Shown: piece by piece, positions 9,591 to 37,987 of the stretch
Numbering within the stretch: the stretch's first letter is position 1
How the letters are laid out: every line of letters begins with the position of its first letter
Assembly: GCA_023974075.1 (NCBI GenBank)
Contig: JAMFTG010000740.1
Location: 1-64,000, forward strand
Source: Chaenocephalus aceratus
Lineage: Eukaryota; Chordata; Actinopteri; Perciformes; Channichthyidae
Length of the DNA: 64,000 nt
Reading direction: 5' to 3'
The notes under the pieces: generated by a model
The model's input: only the letters and a program-made list of their open reading frames with translations
Told to the model about the DNA's origin: nothing
Databases searched by the model: none
Position numbers and translations under genes: made by a program

Positions 9591-9830
9591 ACATATACTT
9601 TATTAATCCATTACACACATGCACACACATAACCACATGCAGATAGGAGAGGTGGCAGAGCAGAGAGGCTGCCAGGTACCCGACGCCAAGGGAGCAGTTT
9701 TGAGGGTAGGTGCCTTGCTAAAGGGCACCTCGGCAGGGCACGCTCTTCATACTACAACTCATCATTACCCGTCATACAGAGCAGTGCCATTTGCTCAAGG
9801 AAGCTAGCCTTCAAAGAACACATTCACACA
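9591..9830. repeat. fragment of an old dispersed fish repeat
   Basis: The stretch around 9685-9750 (gggtaggtgccttgc, agggcacctcggcag) resembles wording common in old fish LINE/SINE-derived repeats. The assignment rests on resemblance only; no terminus or target duplication is visible. Confidence 0.3.
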
Positions 9831-9959
9831 CCGTTGGCGTACCTTTGGAGGCAACTCAGGGTTAAGTGCCCAAGGATACATCAACCGCTCTGTCACTGTC
9901 TGCTTCTTACGTTACCTGCACGGCTTTTCCATACGGCTTTGAGTCCTGGAGAGGAGGAG

Positions 9960-10189
9960 ATGGAAAGCGCATCTGAAGGAGAAGGAGGATGGAATGAAGT
10001 AAGAAAGAAGATGGACATGTCAAGTGACAGTCTCAGTGAATCTGATTCGCAGAATGAAATGAAAAGGGTAAAGCAAAGGATTGAGAATAAAGAGTGGAAA
10101 GTGATTGTGGAGTTCTGTGAGCAATCCGCAGCTGAGCTACATCCAGTGGCCCTCACTAAAGCGATTCACAAAGAAATTGGATCGATAAA
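9960..10189 (+). pseudogene. I-clade LINE ORF1 (gag-like), N-terminal piece
   Basis: The ATG at 9960 opens an acidic, serine-rich N-terminus (MESASEGEGG) followed by the conserved block VIVEFCEQSAAELHPVALTK and HKEIGSI. This matches the general layout of I-clade ORF1 proteins, which bind the element's RNA. The reading frame runs by chance straight on into the inserted L2 endonuclease, giving a false fused frame to 10529. The true continuation starts at 13685: with one copy of GATAAA kept, the frame reads IGSIKKARFLSKGRMLVEM. Upstream in-frame sequence back to 9834 shows no ORF1-like motif. Confidence 0.7.
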
Positions 10190-10275
10190 ACGATTTAAGG
10201 TAAAACCTAATAGAGGTGTCATACATAATAACCTAATAAAAGTAAATGTAACAACTACAGTGCAACAAAACAGGA

Positions 10276-10936
10276 AGATTAAATGTGGTCTCTTAAACAT
10301 AAGATCTCTAGCATCTAAAGCAATATTGGTAAATTATTTAATATCAGATTATAATATTGATATATGCTGTCTCACTGAAACTTGGTTGAGACATGAAGAA
10401 TATGTCAGCATAAATGAGGCCACTCCACCCAGCCATGTCAACACTCATATTGCTCGAGGCACGGGCCGAGGAGGTGGAGTTGCAGCAATCTTTGACTCAA
10501 GTTACTTATCAATACTAAACCAAAATTAAATTATACCTCCTTTGAAAGTCTCGTTTTTAATCTTACGCATCCGACCTGGAAAACTTTGCAGCCAATCTTA
10601 TTTGTTACAGTGTATCGTGCACCAGGTCCTTATTCAGAATTCTTATCAGAATTCTCTGAGTTTTTATCAACTTTGGTTCTTCAAACAGATAAAGTAATTA
10701 TCGTAGGTGACTTTAATATTCATGTTGACGATGATAAAAATAGCCTTACTGTTGCATTTAACTCTATATTAGATTCTGTTGGTTTCTGTCAGAGTGTAAA
10801 TAAACCAACCCACTGCTATAATCACACTCTCGACCTTGTTCTGACTTATGGTATTGAAATTGAGCAACTATTAGTCGAACCGCATAATCCTGCTTTATCC
10901 GACCATTTCTTAGTAAGTTTTGAAGTACTGTTATAG
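10276..10936 (+). pseudogene. L2 ORF2: apurinic/apyrimidinic endonuclease domain
   Basis: This domain nicks target DNA to start target-primed reverse transcription. All usual catalytic landmarks can be read: LLNIRSL (Asn), CLTETWL (Glu), VTVYRAPG (Tyr/Arg), VGDFNIHV (Asp, Asn) and LSDHFLVSFE (Asp, His). The frame breaks once near 10526, between AIFDSSYLSIL and the Tyr motif, so the domain is split into two frames. A stop follows at 10936 and the linker to 11147 carries several stops. Otherwise conservation is good, suggesting moderate age. Confidence 0.85.
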
Positions 10937-11146
10937 ACTACAAAGCATTAGTCAAAAGCTCTTGCAGCAGAAACCTATCTGTTAGTGCTATAGCCACATT
11001 TAAGGAAGAGATTCCACCAATACTTAACTCGATAGCATGTCTGCATGTAGGGGAGGAAACTTATACAAAATGTACACCACCCCAAATTGATCATGTTGTT
11101 GATAGTGCTACAGATGCGCTGCGAATAAAATGACTCTGTTGCTCCT

Positions 11147-11506
11147 TTGAAAAAGAAGAAAATAAAACAACATAGATTAGCTCCATGGCATAATGCCGAA
11201 ACCCGCAAAATAAAGCAAAAGTCGAGACAACTTGAAAGGATATGGCGTTCCACTAAACTTGAAGAATCTCGTTTAATTTGGCATATTACTCTCAATGAAT
11301 ATAAGAAAGCACTGCGTAAAGCGAGAGCAGCCTACTACTCTTCATTAATAGATGAGAATAAGAATAATGCAAGATTTCTTTTCAGCACTGTAGCCAGGCT
11401 GACAGAGAGCCACAGCTCCATTGAGCCTTCTATTCCCATAGCACTCAGTAGCAATGATTTATGTGCTTTTTTAACGATAAAATTGTTACTCTTAGAAACA
11501 AATTAA
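11147..11506 (+). pseudogene. L2 ORF2: linker between endonuclease and RT
   Basis: A lysine/arginine-rich segment with the conserved PWHNAETRKIKQKSRQLE and the EYKKALRKARAAYYSSLI block, which in L2/CR1-type LINEs precedes the reverse transcriptase. It ends in a frameshift around 11500 and continues in another frame at 11519. Confidence 0.75.
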
Positions 11507-11518
11507 TGACCTCTTGCC

Positions 11519-13061
11519 TTGACCAGTATAGTGTTATCAACAGCTCCCGGAAACGTAAGTTCTAATATTACACTAGATAGTAAACTAGAATGCTTTTCAG
11601 CCATAAACCTTGAACCATTACATTCCATGATTCTCTCTTCTAAACCATCAACGTGCATGTTAGACCCAATTCCAACTAAGCTGTTGAAGGAAGTTTTTCC
11701 ATTAATTAGCACTTCTTTATTAAATATTATGAATATGTCTTTATTATCAGGCTATGTTCCACAATCATTCAAAGTAGCAGAGAAAGCGGTCGCAAAACAG
11801 TTGTGTGATTACTTAAAAAACAATGATTTATTTGAAGATTTTCAGTCTGGCTTTAGAACACATCATAGCACAGAGACAGCTCTGGTTAAAGTCACAAATG
11901 ACATTCTAATAGCCTCAGACAAGGGACTTGTCTCTATTCTTGTTTTGCTCGATCTCAGTGCTGCATTTGATACTATCGACCATGATATCCTATTGCAAAG
12001 ACTCGAGCACTTAGTTGGCATACAGGGAACTGCTTTAGGCTGGTTTAGGTCCTATCTATCTGAACGCTCTCAGTTTGTACGTGTTAACGATGAATCTTCC
12101 ACGCAAACCAAAGTTAGCCATGGAGTGCCACAGGGCTCAGTGCTCGGACCTATTTTGTTCACATTATATATGCTTCCGTTAGGCAATATTATAAGGAATC
12201 ATTCTGTAAACTTTCATTGTTATGCGGATGATACTCAACTATATTTATCAATCAAGCTTGATGAAATGAATCATCTAAATAAAATTCAAGACTGCCTTAA
12301 GGACTTAAAAAGGTGGATGACCTTAAACTTTTTGAGGTTAAACACGACCAAAACTGAAGTTATTGTACTTGGCCCGAAGAATCTACGAAACAAATTATCT
12401 AAAGATATACTAACTATGGATGGCATTAATTTGGCCTCCAGTGAGACTGTAAGGAATCTTGGTGTTATATTTGATCAGGATTTATCCTTTAACGCCCACA
12501 TAAAATCAATTTCAAGGACCGCCTACTTCCATCTACGTAACATTGCAAAGATCAGGCATCTTGCCTCAAAACGATGCAGAGAAACTAGTCCATGCATTTG
12601 TTACTTCTAGGCTGGATTATTGTAACTCTTTATTATCAGGGAGTACCAAGAAGTCAGTCAAGTCGCTTCAGCTGATTCAAAATGCTGCGGCTCGTGTACT
12701 AACCAGAGTTAGGAAAAGGGACCACATTACTCCTGTTCTGGCTGCCTTACACTGGCTCCCTATAGAACACAGGATAGAATTTAAAATTCTTCTTCTCGCC
12801 TACAAAGCCCTTAGTGGGCAGGCGCCATCTTACCTTAAATAACTCATTATACCCAACTGTCCTACTAGGGCATTGCGTTCCAAGAATGCAGGGTTGTTGG
12901 TTGTTCCTAGAGTCTCTAAAAGTACAATGGGAGCCAGAGCCTTTTCTTATCAAGCTCCACATTTGTGGAATCAGCTTCCAGTTTGTGTTCGGGCGGCAGA
13001 CACCCTATCCGTTTTTAAGAGTGCGCTTAAGACCTTCCTTTTTGATAAAGCTTATAGTTAG
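11519..13061 (+). pseudogene. L2 ORF2: reverse transcriptase and C-terminus
   Basis: Motifs in order: [15 protein letters not shown] (motif A, catalytic Asp), [18 protein letters not shown] (motif B), [10 protein letters not shown] (motif C with the intact double Asp), then the [10 protein letters not shown] thumb and the C-terminal [10 protein letters not shown] ... [10 protein letters not shown] ... HWLPI ... LWNQLP block that ends L2 proteins. The frame shifts near 12590 and again near 12840. There is an in-frame internal loss just after QSFKVA: the segment that normally carries the 'NYRPIS' motif is absent and the protein resumes at EKAVAKQL. Although YADD is intact, the copy cannot encode a full protein. 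Confidence 0.85.
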
Positions 13062-13643
13062 GGCTGATTAGATTCAGCCCCTAGTTTTGCTGATATAGGC
13101 TTAGTTTGTCGGGGGACATCTTACTTCTTCCTTCTCTCTGTCTGTACCTGTGTACTCTCATGTTCCCATTAACCCAGCTTCCCCACATGTCTTTCTTTTG
13201 GTGTCTATATACGCCGGGATCCGGAGTCATGGATGATCCTGCGGTCCTGTGTCCTGGATCGCGAGCCCTGGATCGCGAGTCGTGGCTGTGGTCCTGGATC
13301 ATCGGTCCTGGATGGATATCCTCGTGGATTCATCTTCCTATTATACACACATGCATTTCCAAACATTTGGACTACCTATGTTGCAAATGTATTATCTTTT
13401 CAATTTACACACGGCATCTATTGCACGTCTGTCCGTCCTGGGAGAGTGATCCCTCCTCTGTTGCTCTCCCTGAGGTTTCTCCCTTTTCCCTTTAAACTGT
13501 GGGTTTTCTTCGGAAGTTTTTCCTTGTACGATGTGAGGGTCTAAGGACAGAGGGTGTCGTATTGTCATACTGATATTCTGTACACACTGTGAAGACCACT
13601 GTGACAAATGTAACATTTGTGATATTGGGCTATATAAATAAAC

Positions 13644-13678
<35 letters not shown>
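13062..13678 (+). repeat. L2 3' UTR and TTGA tail
   Basis: About 600 bp with duplicated 'ctggatcgcgag' words (13255-13280) and a final stretch (13390-13660) shared with a second copy at 48150-48520. The tail is a run of TTGA units after a polyadenylation-like TATAAATAAACA. Confidence 0.8.
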
Positions 13679-13681
<3 letters not shown>

Positions 13682-14640
13682 AAAGAAAGCAAGATTTCTG
13701 AGCAAAGGACGGATGTTGGTAGAAATGATAAATGCAAAAAACAGCAGGAAAAGTTACTGAAAACGAAGACCTTGAAAGAAGTTCGAATTAAATGCCATGT
13801 TCCCGGAGCAAATGGGAAAAGACTTGAGTTATCAGTGGAGCTCCCATAGAAATCAGCATGGAAGAACTCAAAGAAATGAAAGGGGGAAAGTGTCCGTAGT
13901 TAAGCGTCTCCCTGCTACATCAGGGTAAGCTAGTGGACAGTTTGTCTGTTCCTCTTCAGTTTGAAGAAACAATTCAGCAGAAGATAATGATCGGTTGCAT
14001 GAGCTTTCCAGTAAGAGAATTCATCCCCAAACCTCTGCGCTGTAGGTTTGGGCATGTGGCAGACAAGTGCAAAGCAACTAAGCCCAGGTGTCCAACATGT
14101 GCGGGCGAACATGAATACGGTAGTTGTGCTGCAGGTGCTAAGGTGACATGGTGTAACTGTGGAGGGGAACGTAGTGCTGCGTGTCAGGGCTGTGAAGTGC
14201 AGACAAAGGCCAAGGAGGTGCAGAGATACAAAGTTTCATATGCTGAAGCAACAGAAAAGGTTTCACTAAACATAGCTAGGAAATCAAGTAGCAGCAAGTA
14301 TTTTCTCTTCAAAAGATTTCCCCAAACTCCCACAGGCAAAGGAAAGCTCCACAAAGTGTTCACATCAGTGTGTGATAGGAGAGGATGCAGTGATTGTAGT
14401 AGGTCAAGACTGAAATCAACAGCAGGTGCATTTTTGGGGATAAAGGATATAAGCGATGAAATGATACATGATATGCTAGCCTCCAATAATGATGATTCAC
14501 AGCTTAGTGAGTCGATGAATGGCGTTTCTCATTCTGCAGTGGGAATGCTAGAAGCCTTCTTGCAAATGGACAATAATTCAAGACCTATATCAGATCAAAG
14601 AAAAACCAGACGTTATTTGTATTGAGGAAACATGGCTGAA
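13679..14640 (+). pseudogene. I-clade LINE ORF1, second part with zinc knuckles
   Basis: Continues ORF1 after the L2 insertion: ARFLSKGRMLVEM, then (other frame) KLLKTKTLKEVRIKCHVPG, a stop at about 13848, then IGCMSFPVREFIPKPLRC. A row of cysteine/histidine knuckles follows (CKATKPRCPTCAGEHEYGSC, WCNCGGERSAACQGC). The first knuckle is damaged: after PLRC the usual spacer and second cysteine are missing and the text goes straight to RFGHVADKC. The role of the family protein is RNA binding and packaging. Ends near 14625 where the endonuclease ORF overlaps. Confidence 0.75.
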
Positions 14641-15135
14641 GACTCACTTGGACTTCATAATTGGGGGATATAGTGCTATAAGACAAGATATAAATGATGG
14701 CCAGGGAGGGGGATGTGCAATCTTTATCAGAGAAGTCATGTCTTATAGTAGACTAACATTTAAGAACAGTCATGATGTAGTGGGTGTAGAAGTTTGGATT
14801 AATAAAAGGAAAATTAGTGTCCTGAATTTTTATAATCCATGTAATAAACTCAAAATAGAGGAATTAGACAGTCTTTGCCAAGGAAATGAAATGATATGGT
14901 GATTTTAATGCACATAACACGATGTGGGGAGGGAGATCAACAGATTACAACGGACAGGTGGTGGAGGACTTCATGGAGGCAAAGGAATTCGTTTGTTTAA
15001 ATAATGAGCAAGACTCAATTTTAGAGATGGAACAGAGTCTGCGATCGACCTAAGTCTTGTAACGAGTGAATTAGCTTCGGGTAGCAGTTGGGAAGTATTG
15101 GATAAAAACAGTTTGGGAGTGATCATCTTCTGATT
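14600..15135 (+). pseudogene. I-clade LINE ORF2: endonuclease domain
   Basis: Catalytic motifs are spread over different frames: CIEETWLKTHLDF (Glu) near 14611, GQGGGCAIFIRE, the FYNPC block, GDFNAHN near 14899 and GSDHLLI near 15116. At least three frameshifts occur between them. The family enzyme nicks DNA to prime insertion. Confidence 0.75.
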
Positions 15136-15159
15136 ATAATCAAGTTTGATATAAGTCAT

Positions 15160-15974
15160 GTGGTTGAGCTAGACGGTATCATGAGATGGACCTTTTCTAG
15201 AGCAAATTGGGAGGTGTTTGCTAAATTGTGTGATAATGAATTGGATCAGATTGATATGGCAGGAAGTATTTTTACTTCAAATATAATTAAAAGCGCTAAT
15301 CAAACTATTGGGAATAAACTGGTAAACTTAGTAAATGTGTTAAGATGGTACCATGGTGGAACAAAGAATGTAATGATGCAATCCGAAACAAAATCAGGCT
15401 GTTTGGAAAGCTAAGAAAGACACATTCATTACACCATGTATTAGAATATAAAAAGGCTCAGGTAAGGAACATTGTTAAAAGAGCAAAAAGGGAGTGTTGG
15501 AGAGGATTCTGTTCAAGTATTGGGAGAACTACGCCATTAGATAAAGTATGAGGAATGGTTAAGAAGAAGAGGGGAATAAGACAGCAGAGTAACCTGCCAC
15601 TGGTGCTATGGAGAAGGCAGACATTCTAGCTAAGAATGTTGTCAAAGTTCATTCTTGGGAAAATTTGACAGAAGAAGGTGAGATCAGGAGGCAGGAAGTG
15701 TTAGATAGACATCCTGATGTATATGAAGAAAGACATTCGTCGCAGAGTGTTGTAAATATACCTTTTTCTATTCAAGAGTTGAGAAGAGCATTAAGTAAGT
15801 GTAACATGACTGCTCCTGGGAAAGATAATGTATGTTATATAATGTTGACCAAATGAAGTGATTTTGCATTAGGAAAGCTGCTGGAGATGTATAATAAGAT
15901 ATGGGAGAAAGGGAAGCTGCCAATAGTATGGAAAGAGTCTGTCATTATTCCTGTTAGGAAACCTGGGAAAGATC
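15160..15974 (+). pseudogene. I-clade LINE ORF2: pre-RT linker and start of RT
   Basis: Decayed coding sequence with recognisable VPWWNKECNDAIRNKI, YKKAQVRNIVKRAKRECW and KCNMTAPGKDNVCY (the RT entry motif), then WEKGKLPIVWKESVIIPVRK. Stops and frameshifts occur near 15413, 15550 and 15856. It ends at KPGKDP, directly before the tandem array. Confidence 0.75.
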
Positions 15975-18900
15975 CAACCAGTGCAGGCAGTTATAGACCA
16001 ACCAGTGTAGGCAGTTATAGACCAACCAGTGCAGGCAGTTATAGACCAACCAGTGCAGGCAGTTATAGAGCTAACCAGTTATAGACCAACCAGTGCAGGC
16101 AGTTATAGACTAACCAGTTATAGATCAACCAGTGCAGGCAGTTATAGACCAACCAGTGCAGGCAGTTATAGACCAACCAGTACAGGCCGTTATAGACCAA
16201 CCAGTGCAGGCAGTTATAGACCAACCAGTTATAGACCAACCAGTGCAGGCAGTTATAGACCAACCAGTGCAGGCAGTTATAGACTAACCAGTTATAGATC
16301 AACCAGTGCAGGCAGTTATAGACCAACCAGTGCAGGCAGTTATAGGCCAACCAGTACAGGCCGTTATAGAACAACCAGTGCAGGCAGTTATAGACCAACC
16401 AGTTATAGACCAACCAGTGCAGGCAGTTATAGACCAACCAGTCCAGGCAGTTATAGACCAACCAGTTATAGACCAACCAGTACAGGCCGTTATAGACCTA
16501 CCAGTGCAGGCAGTTATAGACCAACCAGTTATAGACCAACCAGTACAGGCCATTATAGACCAACCAGTTATAGACCAACCAGTACAGGCCGTTATAGACC
16601 TACCAGTGCAGGCAGTTATAGACTAACCAGTTATAGATCAACCAGTGCAGGCAGTTATAGACCAACCAGTGCAGGCAGTTATAGACCAACCAGTACAGGC
16701 CGTTATAGACCAACCAGTGCAGGCAGTTATAGACCAACCAGTTATAGACCAACCAGTGCAGGCAGTTATAGACCAACCAGTTATATACCAACCAGTGCAG
16801 GCAGTTATAGACCAACCAGTTATAGACCAACCAGTGCAGGCAGTTATAGACCAACCAGTGCAGGCAGTTATAGACCAACCAGTTATAGACCAACCAGTGC
16901 AGGCAGTTATAGACCAACCAGCTATAGACCAACCAGTGCAGGCAGTTATAGACCAACCAGTGCAGGCAGTTATAGACCAACCAGTGCAGGCAGTTATAGA
17001 CCAACCAGTTATAGACCAACCAGTGCAGGCAGTTATAGACCAACCAGTTATAGACCAAACAGTGCAGGCAGTTATAGACCAACCAGTGCAGGCAGTTATA
17101 GACCAACCAGTTATAGACCAACCAGTCCAGGCAGTTATAGACCAACCAGCTATAGACCAACCAGTGCAGGCAGTTATAGACCAACCAGTCCAGGCAGTTA
17201 TAGACCAACCAGTGCAGGCAGTTACAGACCAACCAGTGCAGGCAGTTATAGACCTACCAGTCCAGGCAGTTATAGACCAACCAGTGCAGGCAGTTATAGA
17301 CCAACCAGTCCAGGCAGTTATAGACCAACCAGTTATAGACCAACCAGTGCAGGCAGTTATAGACCAACCAGTCCAGGCAGTTATAGACCAACCAGTTATA
17401 GACCAACCAGTGCAGGCAGTTATAGACCAACCAGTCCAGGCAGTTACAGACCAACCAGTGCAGGCAGTTATAGACCAACCAGTGCAGGCAGTTATAGACC
17501 AACCAGTTATAGACCAACCAGTCCAGGCAGTTATAGACCAACCAGTGCAGGCAGTTATAGACCAACCAGTTATAGACCAACCAGTGCAGGCAGTTATAGA
17601 CCACCAGTTATAGACCAACCAGTGCAGGCAGTTATAGACCAACCAGTTATAGACCAACCAGTGCAGGCAGTTATAGACCAACCAGTACAGGCCGTTATAG
17701 ACCAACCAGTGCAGGCAGTTATAGACCAACCAGTGCAGGCAGTTATAGACCAACCAGTTATAGACCAACCAGTGCAGGCAGTTATAGACCAACCAGTGCA
17801 GGCAGTTATAGACCAACCAGTTATAGACCAACCAGTGCAGGCAGTTATAGACCAACCAGTGCAGGCAGTTATAGACCAACCAGCTATAGACCAACCAGTG
17901 CAGGCAGTTATAGACCAACCAGTCCAGGCAGTTATAGACCAACCAGTGCAGGCAGTTACAGACCAACCAGTGCAGGCAGTTATAGACCTACCAGTCCAGG
18001 CAGTTATAGACCAACCAGTGCAGGCAGTTATAGACCAACCAGTCCAGGCAGTTATAGACCAACCAGTTATAGACCAACCAGTGCAGGCAGTTATAGACCA
18101 ACCAGTCCAGGGCAGTTATAGACCAACCAGTTATAGACCAACCAGTGCAGGCAGTTATAGACCAACCAGTCCAGGCAGTTATAGACCAACCAGTTATAGA
18201 CCAACCAGTGCAGGCAGTTATAGACCAACCAGTTATAGACCAACCAGTGCAGGCAGTTATAGACCAACCAGTACAGGCCGTTATAGACCAACCAGTGCAG
18301 GCAGTTATAGACCAACCAGTGCAGGCAGTTATAGACCAACCAGTTATAGACCAACCAGTGCAGGCAGTTATAGACCAACCAGTGCAGGCAGTTATAGACC
18401 AACCAGTTATAGACCAACCAGTGCAGGCAGTTATAGACCAACCAGTGCAGGCAGTTATAGACCAACCAGTTATAGACCAACCAGTGCAGGCAGTTATAGA
18501 CCAACCAGTGCAGGCAGTTATAGACCAACCAGTTATAGACCAACCAGTGCAGGCAGTTATAGACCAACCAGTGCAGGCAGTTATAGACCAACCAGTTATA
18601 GACCAACCAGTGCAGGCAGTTATAGACCAACCAGTGCAGGCAGTTATAGACCAACCAGTGCAGGCAGTTATAGACCAACCAGTGCAGGCAGTTATAGACC
18701 AACCAGTTATAGACCAACCAGTGCAGGCAGTTATAGACCAACCAGTGCAGGCAGTTATAGACCAACCAGTTATAGACCAACCAGTGCAGGCAGTTATAGA
18801 CCAACCAGTCCAGGCAGTTATAGACCAACCAGCTATAGACCAACCAGTGCAGGCAGTTATAGACCAACCAGTGCAGGCAGTTATAGACCAACCAGTTATA

Positions 18901-21265
18901 GACCAACCAGTACAGGCCGTTATAGACCAACCAGTTATAGACCAACCAGTACAGGCCGTTATAGACCAATCAGTGCAGGCAGTTATAGACCAACCAGTTA
19001 TAGACCAACCAGTACAGGCCGTTATAGACCAACCAGTTATAGACCAACCAGTACAGGCCGTTATAGACCAACCAGTCCAGGCAGTTATAGACCAACCAGT
19101 CCAGGCAGTTATAGACCAACCAGCTATAGACCAACCAGTGCAGGCAGTTATAGACCAACCAGCTATAGACCAACCAGTGCAGGCAGTTATAGACCAACCA
19201 GTGCAGGCAGTTATAGACCAACCAGTCCAGGCAGTTATAGACCAACCAGTGCAGGCAGTTATAGACCAACCAGTCCAGGCAGTTATAGACCAACCAGTGC
19301 AGGCAGTTATAGACCAACCAGTGCAGGCAGCTATAGACCAACCAGTCCAGGCAGTTATAGACCAACCAGTCCAGGCAGTTATAGACCAACCAGCTATAGA
19401 CCAACCAGTGCAGGCAGTTATAGACCAACCAGCTATAGACCAACCAGTGCAGGCAGTTATAGACCAACCAGTGCAGGCAGTTATAGACCAACCAGTCCAG
19501 GCAGTTATAGACCAACCAGTGCAGGCAGTTATAGACCAACCAGTCCAGGCAGTTATAGACCAACCAGTTATAGACCAACCAGTGCAGGCAGTTATAGACC
19601 AACCAGTGCAGGCAGCTATAGACCAACCAGTGCAGGCAGTTATAGACCAACCAGTGCAGGCAGTTATAGACCAACCAGTGCAGGCAGTTATAGACCAACC
19701 AGTCCAGGCAGTTATAGACCAACCAGTTATAGACCAACCAGTCCAGGCAGTTATAGACCAACCAGTTATAGACCAACCAGTGCAGGCAGTTATAGACCAA
19801 CCAGTGCAGGCAGCTATAGACCAACCAGTGCAGGCAGTTATAGACCAACCAGTGCAGGCAGTTATAGACCAACCAGTCCAGGCAGTTATAGACCAACCAG
19901 TGCAGGCAGTTATAGACCAACCAGTGCAGGCAGTTATAGACCAACCAGTTATAGACCTACCAGTGCAGGCAGTTATAGACCAACCAGTTATAGACCAACC
20001 AGTGCAGGCAGTTATAGACCAACCAGTTATAGACCAACCAGCTATAGACCAACCAGTGCAGGCAGTTATAGACCAACCAGCTATAGACCAACCAGTGCAG
20101 GCAGTTATAGACCAACCAGTGCAGGCAGTTATAGACCAACCAGTCCAGGCAGTTATAGACCAACCAGTGCAGGCAGTTATAGACCAACCAGTCCAGGCAG
20201 TTATAGACCAACCAGTTATAGACCAACCAGTGCAGGCAGTTATAGACCAACCAGTGCAGGCAGCTATAGACCAACCAGTGCAGGCAGTTATAGACCAACC
20301 AGTGCAGGCAGTTATAGACCAACCAGTGCAGGCAGTTATAGACCAACCAGTCCAGGCAGTTATAGACCAACCAGTTATAGACCAACCAGTCCAGGCAGTT
20401 ATAGACCAACCAGTTATAGACCAACCAGTGCAGGCAGTTATAGACCAACCAGTGCAGGCAGCTATAGACCAACCAGTGCAGGCAGTTATAGACCAACCAG
20501 TGCAGGCAGTTATAGACCAACCAGTCCAGGCAGTTATAGACCAACCAGTGCAGGCAGTTATAGACCAACCAGTTATAGACCTACCAGTGCAGGCAGTTAT
20601 AGACCAACCAGTTATAGACCAACCAGTGCAGGCAGTTATAGACCAACCAGTTATAGACCAACCAGCTATAGACCAACCAGTGCAGGCAGTTATAGACCAA
20701 CCAGCTATAGACCAACCAGTGCAGGCAGTTATAGACCAACCAGTGCAGGCAGTTATAGACCAACCAGTCCAGGCAGTTATAGACCAACCAGTGCAGGCCG
20801 TTATAGACCAACCAGTCCAGGCAGTTATAGACCAACCAGTGCAGGCAGTTATAGACCAACCAGTCCAGGCAGCTATAGACCAACCAGTGCAGGCAGTTAT
20901 AGACCAACCAGTCCAGGCAGTTATAGACCAACCAGCCCAGGCAGTTATAGACCAACCAGTGCAGGCAGTTATAGACCAACCAGTGCAGGCAGTTATAGAC
21001 CAACCAGTCCAGGCAGTTATAGACCAACCAGTCCAGGCAGTTATAGACCAACCAGTCCAGGCAGTTATAGACCAACCAGTCCAGGCAGTTATAGACCAAC
21101 CAGTGCAGGCAGTTATAGACCAACCAGTCCAGGCAGTTATAGACCAACCAGTCCAGGCAGTTATAGACCAACCAGTGCAGGCAGTTATAGACCAACCAGT
21201 GCAGGCAGCTATAGACCAACCAGTGCAGGCAGTTATAGACCAACCAGTGCAGGCAGTTATAGACC
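15975..21265 (+). repeat. 5.3-kb minisatellite expanded from RT codons TSAGSYRP
   Basis: The array has two interleaved unit lengths. The 24-bp unit encodes TSAGSYRP. The 15-bp unit encodes TSYRP and differs by loss of the nine bases gcaggcagt. Main variants are SPG (gtccag), STGRYRP (tacaggccg), CTATAG for TTATAG, and GTTACAG. By length it holds roughly 240-250 units (estimate, not counted). Left flank KPGKDP and right flank [17 protein letters not shown] show it lies exactly in the conserved 'SYRPI' motif of the I-clade RT. Most units are multiples of three, so two plus-strand and two minus-strand frames stay open for kilobases; the 1,771-codon plus frame and the large minus frames are artefacts of unit composition, not genes. 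Indels sit near 16069 (+1), 17603 (-1) and 18111 (+1). Confidence 0.95.
19558..20840 (+). repeat. higher-order duplication inside the minisatellite (~0.63-0.65 kb period)
   Basis: Rare variants recur in the same order: ggcagctata at 19611 and 20259 (648 bp apart) and gacctaccag at 19954 and 20578 (624 bp apart). The difference is one 24-bp unit. Another such pair is gttacag + 'gacctaccagtcc' around 17221 and 17955 (734 bp apart). An approximately 270-bp repeat is seen at about 19118 and 19388. These are traces of block-wise unequal exchange. Confidence 0.75.
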
Positions 21266-22120
21266 TATAGCTCTGACATCGCACTTGTGTAAAGTTATGG
21301 AAAGAAGGATAACAGAAAGGCTGACATACTACGTTGAGAAATGAAATGAACTAATGACTCCTTATCAGAGTGGGTTTAGAAGAGGGCGGAGAACTTTCGA
21401 TCCACTGCTGTGCCTGGAGTCTGAAGTCAGGAAAGCCCCAGCGAATAAGGAGTGTGTTGTGGCTGTATTCTTTGATGTGGAAAAAGCTTACGATGTGATG
21501 TGGAAGGAAGGATTATTAATAAAAATGGACATTATGTGGCCAGGAGGTAACGCATATAATTGGATTATGGATTTTTTGTTTGGCTGTGCCATCAAAGTCC
21601 GAGTTGGCAATTCATATTCTCGAAGGCATGAAGTTGAGAATGGAACCCCGCAGGGGAGTGTAATTAGTCCTCTTTTGTTTTCTATCATGATAAATGATAT
21701 ATATACTCAAGTAGGGTCTGATTGGTTTGGTCACTTTTTGCAGATGGAGCTATTTGGAAAAGGGGCAGAAATGTAAAATTATTGTAGGTAAGATTCAGGA
21801 AGCCATTACGGAAATTGAAAGCTGGTCTCGGACGGGGGGGGTTTAGATTGTCGGTGGAAACAACTGAAACTTTATTTGTTACGAGGAAAAGGATAGGTGA
21901 GGAGGTTAGGTTAAAACTTTATGGACAAGAACTAAAGAAAGTGAAGACATTTAAGTTTCTGGGAATATGGTTGGACGAGAGAGTCACATGGAGTACTCAC
22001 ATTGATAAAGTAGTGGATACATGTAAAAGGGTTTTAAATGTTATGAGGTATGCTGTGGCGGGGGGGGGCAGTCAGACCAGTGTCGGCACTTCAGGTAGAG
22101 GTCGGAGAAATACCAATTGA
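21266..22120 (+). pseudogene. I-clade LINE ORF2: reverse transcriptase, post-array part
   Basis: Starts [19 protein letters not shown], continues MTPYQSGFRRGRRTFDPLLC, VAVFFDVEKAYDVMWKEG (motif A, Asp kept) and NGTPQGSVISPLLFSIMIND (motif B). Motif C is broken: in the best frame near 21735 it reads FADGAIW, with one of the two catalytic Asp codons missing, plus a frameshift. The thumb (KVKTFKFLGIWLDERVTWS) follows at 21940-22000, then the frame is lost in a G-run at 22060. A frameshift at 21344-21354 separates the first block. Confidence 0.8.
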
Positions 22121-22588: not shown

Positions 22589-22993
22589 TGTCAGGGTTTA
22601 GTGCTAGTATCCTGTTAGCTGTTGTGTTTTAGTGTTTATCTATCTGTCTTATGATGTTAATTACTCTACTCTCTCTCCAGGTGTCGGCACTTCCTGTCCG
22701 TGTGGCACCTGCTAGACTGATTGTTGTTCCCGCCCCTGATTGTGTCCACCTGTGCCACATTACCTAATGTGTATATTTAGTCCTTCTCTCCCTTTGTCTG
22801 GTGTTGGTTCGTCTTGTCTTGTCGTTATCTCCATGCCTGTGTACCAGAGAACCATGTTACAAGACCTAGTAGAACCTAGTGATTCGATGTAGATCCTAGT
22901 AGTCATTATTGGATAGCTTGGTTTATTTACAATAAAGAATATTACCAAGCAAACGGAATCGAGCATCTGAGTTCTTACGAGGTCATCGTAGCA
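22589..22993 (+). mobile_element. solo LTR (Ty3/Gypsy-like), 405 bp
   Basis: Begins TGTCAGGGTTTAG and ends CGTAGCA, with an exact 5-bp target duplication AATGC at 22584-22588 and 22994-22998. It contains a TATA-like tatatttag (22772-22780) and an AATAAAG polyadenylation signal near 22931, the plan of a fish Gypsy LTR. Removing the LTR and one AATGC restores the RNase H frame exactly (VQPMRVVLCSDS). No internal region is left, so it arose by LTR-LTR recombination. Confidence 0.85.
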
Positions 22994-23677
22994 AATGCGA
23001 GTGGTCCTTTGCTCTGACTCCAGCGCAGCTCTGGAGAGTATAAATAACTTCTCTTCAGAATGTCGTCAGGATATTTGACATGACATTTTACACATCATGT
23101 TTAGGTTAGTTCATCTGGGAATTGTTGTTCAATTTGTGTGGGTTCCAGCGCATGTGGGTATTAGAGGGAATGAGGTCGTGGATCAACCGGCAACATGTGG
23201 TTTGAAAGCAAACCAGATTGATATAATGGAACCCATCAGTAGAGCAGAAGTCAAATCTGTTACAAAAGTGGTTATCAAGCAACAATGGCAAAAACTATGG
23301 GACAGTAACCGTAAAGGAAGACATTTATAGCAGATACAAAGGGAAGTGGGAACAGGAAGCACTCGGGGAGTAGTAGAAGAGAACAGAGCATTAACAGCAG
23401 GATAACATTGGGACACTCTGGATTAAACTCATCAATGCATCTGATTGGAAAACATCCAACTGGCAATTGTGATGGTTGCCAACAACCAGAGACAATACAT
23501 CATGTATTTGTTAGCTGCCCGGATTATAACAGACAAAGACTCATTCTGAAAACTGCACTGGAACAACTCAACGTCAAGGACATGGATTTCAAGTCAATAT
23601 GCGAAAGTAAATCAAATGAAGCAAACAAGCTGATCTTCAAGTTCCTCAAAAGCACTGGTCTGAGGACAAGCATTTAA
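22994..23677 (+). pseudogene. I-clade LINE ORF2: RNase H second half and C-terminal Cys/His motif
   Basis: Reads VVLCSDSSAALESINNFSS (third Asp), then VQFVWVPAHVGIRGNEVVDQ (last Asp), and after a frameshift the C-terminal HPTGNCDGCQQPETIHHVF with VSCPDYNRQRL, a Cys-Cys-His-Cys pattern common at the end of I-clade ORF2. The ORF ends at 23675-23677. Confidence 0.75.
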
Positions 23678-29028: not shown

Positions 29029-29465
29029 ATGGCTGAACGCGATGTGTTCGTAAAGCTGCCGGAATTCTGGGAGCACGCATGGAGGCGCACTTCACCTGCC
29101 GACAGGTCTGTGACGGGGACCTGAAATACTACCATGTGGTAGTAGCGCTGGGCAGCTCTGCGTCGTCCAGGTTGGTGGGATTCATCGCAGCCCCCCCACA
29201 TCATGGCAAATATGAGGCGATTAAGGCTCTTCTCCTTAAGCAGATCGTTTTTTCCTGGCTACACAACAGCTCGGTGCAGAGACGTTAGCCGTGACGCTCA
29301 GCGGCCCACCTGCAGTCAAGAAAGCGTGGCGGACATGGCTGTGGCGAGCCGGCGTGGAGACGCTGGAGAGTGCGTTTACCATGCACGTTTTGGGACAAGG
29401 GTGAAGAGATGCATCGCTCCGTGCAGCTACAAACCCCCAGGAAACGGAGGGGCCGGCGCTCAGTA
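29029..29465 (+). pseudogene. Gypsy gag remnant with zinc-knuckle-like end
   Basis: The ATG at 29029 opens MAERDVFVKLPEFWEHAW. After a frameshift or small deletion the capsid-like AHFTCRQVCDGDLKYYHVVV and GKYEAIKALLL are in another frame. The second half of gag is mostly deleted, and the text resumes near 29355 with ECVYHARFGTRVKRC, the knuckle-like end seen in fish Gypsy gag. Gag would form the particle; this copy cannot. Confidence 0.7.
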
Positions 29466-30207
29466 GGGGCTCTGAGCGTCGGCGGCACGTGCATGCTCCT
29501 CTTCGTCAGCGACAGCGTTTCGGGGAGCCTGTTTCTGTGTGACACGGGCGCTCAACGGAGCGTAGTTCCAGCGTTGAGTGAAGACTTCGCCCGTGGGGGG
29601 CACGGACCGCGATTGACGACGGCTAACGGCGGTCCCATTCGCACGTACGGCGTGAGGCCTATGTGTCTGTGCATCGGAGGACAGCGTTTCAGCTGGGATT
29701 TCGTGACAGCGGACATTTCTTTTCCCCTCCTCGGAGCGGATTTTTTGTGTGCTCATGGACTCTTAGTGGACGTTAAGAATAGGCGTTTGGTTGATGCCTT
29801 AACGTTTTCTTCCCTCGTGTGCACACTTGGCAGCGCAGCGTACGTCGGGCTGTCGGGCTCGCTGTTGGGGGCAGACACGTTTCTCAGACTGTTGGCCGAG
29901 TTTCCAGACCTGTCGCTGCCCACCTTCTCTGCGCTTACCACTAAGCATGGCGTGGAACACCACGTCACTACCGAGGGGCCTCCTGTCTACGCCAGGGCCC
30001 GGCGGTTGAACCCTTCTAAGCTGGCTGTAGCGAGGGCGGAGTTCTCAACCATGGAGCGCCTGGGCATTGTCCGCCGCTCCGACAGTCCTTGGGCTTCCTC
30101 CCTGCACGTCGTTCCCAAACCGAACGGCGGGTTCCGCCCGTGCGGGGATTACCGCCGACTCAACAACGCCACTACGCCTGACCGCTATCCGGTGCGTACT
30201 TTTCGCC
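29466..30207 (+). pseudogene. Gypsy protease and N-terminal RT
   Basis: The aspartic protease motif LFLCDTGAQRSVVP is near 29530-29570 with the flap partner FPLLGADFLCAHGLLVD. The RT start follows with YARARRLNPSKLAVAR and KPNGGFRPCGDYRRLNN. The frame breaks at about 30200, before the first catalytic Asp motif, which is missing or shortened. Confidence 0.8.
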
Positions 30208-30831
30208 GCATCTGGACGGTACGGGGGTATTTTCCAAGGTGGACCAGGTGCCCATGCACCCCCTGGACATTCCCAAGACAGCAGTGATAACGCCTTTTGG
30301 ACTTTTTGAGTTCCTGCGGATGCCCTTTGGACTCAAGAATGCCGCTCAGACGTTCCAGCGCCTGATGGATTCGGTGCTGCGTTCCCTGCCGTTTGTGTTT
30401 GTCTACCTCAACGACATACTCGTCGCCAGCGCTTCAGTGCAGGAGCACCTGTCCCACCTCCGAGCCCTTTTCACACAGCTCAACGAACACGGATTAATCA
30501 TCAATCCTGCAAAGTGCCAGTTCGGGGTGTCGGACATCAATTTCCTGGGGCACCGCGTCACCAAGGGCGGTGCGACACCTCTGCCAGCGAAGGTGGAGGC
30601 TGTTGCAGCTTTTCCTCGCCCGCTCACAGCCCGGTCGCTCCGTGAGTTTCTGGGGATGGTGAATTTCTACCACCGTTTCATCGCCCGGGCCGCACACATC
30701 ATGCGGCCGCTGTATGAAGCGTTGAAAGGCAAGACCCCCGTCCAGGAGATCGACTGGACAGCAGAGGCGGACGGCGCTTTTGCTGAGGTCAAGACCGCGT
30801 TGGCTCAGGCGGCTTTGCTGGCACACCCATA
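30208..30831 (+). pseudogene. Gypsy reverse transcriptase core
   Basis: Reads MHPLDIPKTAVITPFGLFEF, RMPFGLKNAAQTFQRLMD and then FVYLNDILVAS. The catalytic YxDD box has one Asp replaced by Asn (YLND), which should inactivate the enzyme. The connection GMVNFYHRFIARAAHIMRPL follows. A stop codon at 30829-30831 ends the frame before RNase H. Confidence 0.85.
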
Positions 30832-31250
30832 ATCTACGGCTCCCATCTCCATCACCACGGACGCGTCGGACTACGCGGTCGGCGAAGTGCACGAGCAGTG
30901 GGTGGAGGGCGCTTGGCAGCCGCTCGCCTTTTTCAGCCGCCAGCTGACGCCTAGAGAACGCAAATACAGCACCTTTGGCCATGCGGCACTTCCGTTTCAT
31001 GCTGGAAGGCCGTGAATTTATGGCGTTTGTCGACCACAAGCCGCTCACCTTCGCCATGTCAAAAGTAGCGGAGCCTTGGTCGGCACGTCAGCAGCGGCAG
31101 CTGTCCTATATATCGGAGTTCACTACGGACATTAAGCACGTGGCTGGCAAGTCGAACCTGGTTGCTGATTGCCTCTCCAGGGTCGTCATCGGTGCCGTCC
31201 AGTTGGGCCTGGACTATACTCGCATGGCGGCGGACCAGGTCACAGATCCC
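30832..31250 (+). pseudogene. Gypsy RNase H
   Basis: Reads SITTDASDYAVGEVHEQW (Asp), FFSRQLTPRERKYSTF (Glu region), then after a frameshift near 30978 HFRFMLEGREFMAFVDHKPL and HVAGKSNLVADCLSRV (last Asp). Order and spacing are normal for Gypsy. Confidence 0.8.
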
Positions 31251-32038
31251 GGCGTCCAGGCTCTGAAGGTGGAGAGCGCGGGGCTGCGCTTGGAGGACAT
31301 GGTGTTCGGCGTCGCGGGCATTACTCTCCTGTGTGACGTCTCTACGGGCCTGGCGCAGCCTGTCGTCCCTGACAGCTGGAGGCGTCCTGTGTTCGAGGCT
31401 GTGCACGGCCTGTCACACCCCGGCGTTAAACCTTCGGTACGTTTGGTAGCGGCAAAGTTCGTGCCCCTCGAGGCCGCCTTACGGACGGTAACTGGGTCGG
31501 CAAGCTGCCCTGGGTGATGCTGGGCCTGAGAACCGCACCTAAGGAAGATCTGCAGTGTTCTACAGCGGAGATGGTCTACGGTCAGCCGCTGAGAGTTCCA
31601 GCCGCTCCAGTCCCGACTACTCAGCACGGTGCGCCAGGGTCTCAAGTTCCCGCGGAGCTACGCTCGGCTGGGCACGTCTTAATTCGTCACGACGCACACA
31701 GAGGCCCCTTGCAGCCCCCTTATGATGGACCTTTCTGGGTTTTGGAACACGGTGAAAAACACCTGGTGGTCGACATGGGCGGTAAGGCTGAGCACGTCTC
31801 GGTTGACCGGGTGAAGGCTGCTCACTTGGACGTGGACCGGCCGGTGGTGCTGGCTCGGCCGCCGAGACGGGGCCGATCCCCGGCTTTGATTCCTGTCAGG
31901 GAGTGTGGACCTGTTGTTCCGGTCCCTCCTCTGTCAGGGGCCGCACGGGCGGAGGTCGCTGTACCGACTCCGGTGCGCAGGTCTCGTGGGGGCAGGCGGA
32001 TTGTTCCTCCCCGCCATACGGATTTTGTTTACTCGTGA
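31251..32038 (+). pseudogene. Gypsy integrase with the catalytic core deleted
   Basis: The N-terminal zinc region is present as VHGLSHPGVKPSVRLVAAKF, ending near 31460. The next recognisable part, GNWVGKLPWVMLGLRTAPKE, belongs downstream of the DDE core, so nearly the whole catalytic core is missing. The C-terminal PYDGPFWVLEHGEKHLVVDM (GPY/F-like) module and a basic, proline-rich tail end at the stop 32036-32038. Confidence 0.8.

Positions 32039-37767: not shown

Positions 37768-37987
<220 letters not shown>

Follow-up and report, generated by a model that had tools for sequence, protein, structure and literature searches.

A tandem array of 24- and 15-bp units within the reverse transcriptase sequence of a LINE copy in Chaenocephalus aceratus

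The LINE that hosts the array and its neighbours

The window, that is, the whole stretch of 64,000 nucleotides from Chaenocephalus aceratus analysed here, contains a LINE in which a long tandem array interrupts the reverse transcriptase (RT) sequence. All of the features of this element lie on the forward strand. The left part of its ORF2, extending from the endonuclease part to the start of the RT, is located at 14489..15972, where tblastn with the protein P0030 gave 64–85% identity, depending on the piece. This part contains stops and frame changes, including an in-frame TGA at 15854..15856, just left of the array, that is common to all three contigs of the locus (described below). On the other side of the array, the right part of the RT domain occupies 21264..21776, as found by tblastn and by the RVT_1 Pfam match over 21345-21773 (E = 4.1e-16). 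The RT catalytic site at 21735..21757 reads FADG, identically in the three contigs. Among the sibling copies of this LINE in the same assembly, the site is FADD in 14 of the 16 copies in which the search word matched (L036 and L040 differ), six further siblings without a match to that word being left out of the 16. The RNase H part and the 3′ end of ORF2 are located at 22992..23674 (tblastn with P0006, P0010, and P0013). In addition, the open-reading-frame list contains a frame with cysteine-rich stretches at 13900..14625, which is probably ORF1 of the same LINE; it has no Pfam match.

In a Pfam search of ten window pieces, RVT_1 alone passed the cut-off. The endonuclease, RNase_H, and other matches were weak and fell below it, and five pieces had no match. 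Relatives possessing an endonuclease, an RT, and an RNase H yielded collinear tblastn matches across 14.5-23.7 kb, in several frames. The endonuclease–RT–RNase H order of a LINE is thus seen through the collinear tblastn matches, with Pfam supporting RVT_1 alone, and the sequence on both sides of the array is, by this homology, one LINE. The protein relatives considered are the best 120 of 690; those with names are mostly from fish, and a few bear prokaryote names. A search of the window with Rfam gave no match.

Because the TGA at 15854 and the FADG site are present in all three contigs, this LINE copy is dead. Other lesions are distributed differently: a stop at 21342 occurs in the window contig alone, and a stop near 15550 occurs in two of the contigs (C739, which contains the window, and C2025) but not in the third (C269). 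Some of the other frame changes in the LINE copy may be assembly errors.

Several other repeats lie in the window. Another LINE-like element spans 9633-13681; it has an open RT frame at 11510-12610, with the motif YADD, and ends in (ATTG)n at 13644-13681, directly 5′ of the array-bearing LINE. Open frames resembling a Ty3/gypsy-type pol in pieces, as judged by eye, are located at 29295-32038. TRF also found three adjacent tandem arrays at 1413-1900, with units of 105, 42, and 44 bp, and a perfect (GT)109 microsatellite at 37769-37986.

Structure of the array and its three versions

The array spans 15974..21263 on the forward strand and consists of 244 units, as defined by TRF (whose call is 15974-21265), a unit parse, and a comparison of pattern counts with shuffles. 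When up to three mismatches are allowed, a 23-base piece of the unit matches the window 180 times, always within the array, and 100 shuffles gave no match. A sequence-only reading of the window had counted over 200 units between RT-like flanks, and this description is correct for the window contig: KPGKDP is read directly 5′ of the array, and the RT sequence resumes 3′ of it. The site within the LINE RT can be written as KPGKDP[TSxGSYRP]IALTS. The amplified segment is located upstream of the RT catalytic motifs, rather than inside one of them.

The unit parse also revealed a class of units that was absent from that earlier description. While 181 of the units belong to a 24-bp class near CCAACCAGTGCAGGCAGTTATAGA, the other 63 belong to a 15-bp class near CCAACCAGTTATAGA. 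There are 25 distinct unit sequences, the commonest of which occurs 107 times. Translated in the RT frame, the long unit gives PTSAGSYR and the short unit PTSYR; 41 long units have TSPG and 12 have TSTG. Minisatellites, or VNTRs, are defined by tandem units of about 10-100 bp and arrays of up to some kb. The 24- and 15-bp units and the arrays of 5.3, 4.2, and 1.8 kb in the three contigs are of this size.

Does the array encode a protein? It remains readable in frame since both unit lengths, 24 and 15, are divisible by three and no stop interrupts the unit in this frame, and a 1777-codon open frame crosses most of it, as would be expected if the repeat were kept as the coding sequence of a new repetitive protein. 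However, three of the 244 units, of 16, 14, and 25 bp, deviate in length and change the frame inside the array, the reverse strand is also open for 1120 codons, and the surrounding LINE carries its stops and frame changes, one stop being common to the three contigs. The frame-changing units and the stops rule out coding selection. The probability of a retained coding sequence is negligible, and the array has no coding role.

In the whole assembly, the array query matched only C739, C2025, and C269 (49 of 49 rows). An exact 30-base junction between units has 81 matches (39 in C739, 33 in C2025, and 9 in C269), and 315 matches (151, 109, and 55, respectively) were obtained for a 22-base junction when one mismatch was tolerated. 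These counts are whole-assembly totals, with places listed for the first matches alone; since the three contigs account for 81/81 and 315/315 of them, there are no junctions elsewhere in the assembly. The three contigs are short (76.9, 36.3, and 185.6 kb for C739, C2025, and C269, respectively). Positions 1-29025 of C739 align with C2025, and positions 1-45122 are collinear with C269 up to the end of the latter contig, with insertions and deletions. As this alignment extends far beyond the LINE, the three contigs are versions of one locus.

Outside the array, the alignment of C739 with C2025 contains 3 mismatches and 28 gap openings over 11.1 kb on the left; the corresponding numbers for the 7.8 kb on the right are 10 and 35. 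Between C269 and C739, the LINE flanks differ at 21/2278 and 18/1315 positions (0.92% and 1.37%), and the other long pieces outside the array differ by 0.1-1.9% (e.g., 30 differences in 22 kb on the right). We infer that a single haplotype was assembled twice, as C739 and as C2025, and that C269 is the other haplotype or a duplicate.

Two further differences between the contigs can be described here. The contigs C739 and C2025 (L009, L010, L013, L019, and L020) are near-identical, differ mainly by short gaps, and look redundant, with uncorrected indels. About 400 bp within the RNase H part (22589-22990) is missing from C269, which has other insertions nearby; one version would have gained a young insertion here, or the other would have undergone a deletion.

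The array itself differs far more strongly. It contains 244 units in C739, 194 in C2025, and 82 in C269, with lengths of 5291, 4153, and 1816 bp, respectively, each with a single base of the left flank counted in. The unit number of a VNTR differs between its alleles; the three contigs are candidate alleles in this sense, with assembled lengths that may not be exact. The unit order is common to C739 and C2025, which differ by blocks: their longest common run is 31 identical units, compared with a maximum of 10 in 200 shuffles. In contrast, no common unit order beyond chance was found between C269 and either of the other two, as the longest common run is 5 units with C739 (200 shuffles: mean 5.1, maximum 8) and 6 units with C2025 (shuffles: mean 4.7, maximum 8). 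C269 lacks the TSPG and TSTGRYRP units that are present in both C739 and C2025, and 24-bp units with CAGCTATAGA make up 18 of its 82 units, versus 6 of 244 in the window. The array was rewritten over the time that it took the LINE flanks to diverge by about 1%.

Blocks of units also recur within the arrays. In C739, the block of 24 units at 19386..19916 on the forward strand recurs exactly 648 bp further on (at most 10 units in 100 shuffles), and C2025 contains an internal repeat of 18 units (at most 12 in shuffles). Both are block duplications. C269 has no block repeat beyond chance (6 units, a length reached by 36 of 100 shuffles), and no period of the whole array was detected, as shuffles reached a unit-lag score of 0.38 and the array scored 0.36 at best. 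The array of C2025 includes four units of odd length, which point to uncorrected errors.

An assembly artefact might then account for the array or for most of its length: C739 and C2025 have near-identical flanks around arrays that differ by 50 units, and the flanks themselves combine few mismatches with many gap openings. For this reason, the array length, seen in the assembly alone, is uncertain. However, the array is present in three contigs, and the distinct content of C269, with no TSPG and many CAGCTATAGA units, is unlike the collapse or stutter of one sequence. We consider an artefact to be very improbable.

The single-copy state and the growth of the array

In order to examine the ancestral state of the site, we used the 383 bp left of the array to search the same assembly (1,064,297,438 bases, 1.06 Gb, in 3032 contigs). 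The search returned at least 30 rows, three of which are the array locus and 27 of which are others. From the latter, we left out L050 and L051, which have no left edge, L041, which breaks off before the site, and L046, in which the alignment is too poor, and we counted L048 and L049 as one copy. The site was readable in 22 distinct siblings (the LINE family may be larger than these at least 22 copies, as the search scores the best candidates). The segment is single in all of them, and the repeat-junction word occurs at none of the 22 loci. Thus, one unit is ancestral, and the amplification took place within this element. The segment also occurs once in P0030, the closest of the listed protein relatives (84% identity over 58% of the query). 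The proposal in the sequence-only reading that one 24-bp stretch of RT coding sequence was amplified in place is therefore upheld.

Most siblings (18/22) have GTCCAGG, the TSPG form, including L038, in which a neighbouring codon differs. GTGCAGG, the TSAG form, is found in two (L026 and L035), and L034 and L045 differ from both. The founder of the array was probably of the TSAG form, as this form opens and closes the array in each of the three contigs and TSPG units are missing from C269. At the flanks, the window LINE differs from 23 sibling loci at 4.4-9.6% of the aligned bases, and the divergence of L036 and most siblings from one another is smaller than that of the window LINE from them. 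We compared the siblings by pairwise figures, as a tree of their flanks is distorted by truncated or interrupted copies.

Among 125 fetched proteins, SYRP occurs once in 67, not at all in 55, and more than once in three (P0002, P0003, and P0124). These three were found via the array queries and carry another Pfam domain, PF11655.

Could the LINE have arrived already repeated? The array is present in every version of the locus seen, consistent with its production by template jumping during reverse transcription. However, all 22 readable siblings have one unit, and we regard this origin as improbable. Since the locus versions differ completely in content, turnover after the insertion is needed in any case.

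The site contains short repeated words. In the single-unit state, CAGT occurs twice, 9 bp apart, as does TCCA, and a loss of the 9 bp between the two CAGT words yields the 15-bp unit. The sibling L034 (G000:C7:35703366-35706746) has an independent 9-bp loss at the amplified site, in a segment that is otherwise single; the site therefore slips even in the single-copy state. Hairpins were considered as a driver of the growth, but lack folding support, with four segments failing to fold better than shuffles (z 0.52 to 1.45).

Taken together, we favour, with a probability of roughly 0.85, a hypervariable minisatellite that is confined to one locus, within a dead LINE, that grew by slippage and unequal exchange, and whose three versions would be haplotypes. 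We infer the order of the events and the recombination mechanism as follows.

Founding: A copy of the LINE family would have been inserted at this locus and then decayed. The first duplication of the 24-bp RT stretch may have occurred by a rare slip or by end-joining, with little homology at the ends. The sole homology is the CC at both ends, a poor explanation for the first duplication that counts against the proposed course.

Growth: Once two copies were adjacent, they could have expanded by replication slippage together with unequal exchange or gene conversion; slippage and unequal exchange are the usual way to account for such growth. The 15-bp unit would have arisen from the 24-bp unit by the 9-bp loss between the CAGT words, and the later growth would have proceeded by the copying of whole blocks of units. 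The content of the array would thereby turn over much faster than the flanks.

A stronger reading, which we think rather unlikely, is that this is a newborn, extremely unstable minisatellite with a readable history, which would include the ancestral unit of the 22 paralogs, the substitution in the founder, the earliest length variant, and a pair of locus versions that have LINE flanks about 1% apart but no unit order in common. Such an array may be a germline hotspot of mutation or recombination, and could give rise to a satellite upon reaching another locus.

Minisatellite, satellite, and known LINE-derived repeats

The sequence-only reading had described the array as satellite-scale and as a possible seed of a satellite, and this part of its interpretation, unlike the amplification in place, did not hold. 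In the sections of PMC7004042 used here, satellite arrays extend over tens of kb to Mb, while the present array is 5.3 kb at most in the assembly and occupies one locus. Instead of the many arrays or the large genome share of a satellite, there is one locus within the assembled DNA; the search of the source genome for other arrays of the unit led to the three contigs of this locus, all with the array in the LINE, and the junction with up to one mismatch is found nowhere else in the assembly.

The more than 200 units, their high identity to one another, and the block duplication would suit satellite DNA, or an array spreading to other loci. However, all 315 and all 81 junction matches lie within the three contigs, which rules out a satellite or dispersed repeat in the assembly. 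No array-bearing protein was detected among the scored candidates: one search gave 3 matches among 7993 candidates (proteins of about 275-875 residues), and another gave 4 matches at E≤10 among 7994 (about 139-443 residues). The proteins P0001-P0003, considered as possible array-bearing proteins, are unrelated repetitive proteins on reading. There was also no match in viral or prokaryote contigs, which are weak tests for such a repeat. We therefore consider the satellite interpretation to be most improbable, and the array is a minisatellite rather than a satellite because of its length and its single locus.

Tandem repeats related to LINE coding sequences are already in print, and the window array is a new, unusually readable example. 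A list of 7276 transposable-element-derived minisatellites in human is given in PMC9659126. Like the present array, they consist of short tandem units with an origin within a transposon copy. In the part of that paper drawn on here, however, the cases mostly involve non-coding or terminal parts of the elements, whereas our array has its source in LINE coding sequence, with the ancestral unit seen in 22 siblings. The same portion names satellites related to LINE ORF2, i.e., PROsat and Pvc 20 (L1), and HinfI (CR1). These are likewise tandem repeats matching LINE ORF2 coding sequence, but they are named genome satellites, whereas our array occupies one locus and its unit is very short. The length polymorphism region of the mouse L1 ORF1, described in PMC3600994, resembles our array in having two unit lengths (66 and 42 bp) within LINE coding sequence; it differs in having 2-3 units and being carried by active families, in contrast to hundreds of units in one dead copy. 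The Ogre-derived repeats of Lathyrus, in the cited sections of PMC7004042, are also tandem subrepeats in a retrotransposon, proposed as a step before a satellite. They reside in many copies of an LTR retrotransposon, some of them expanded, while here we see one LINE copy and no spread. A LINE fragment in the relevant passage of PMC8392823 is said to be non-tandem.

As this case shows, a transposon copy can contain a few hundred repeats that do not become a satellite. The value of the array lies in the completeness of its history, rather than in the kind of object it is. In most tandem repeats, the trace of the beginning is lost. Here, the start sequence is given by 22 siblings, the bounds of the amplified segment are sharp, and several versions of the locus are at hand, so that the individual steps of the growth from a single unit to hundreds are testable.
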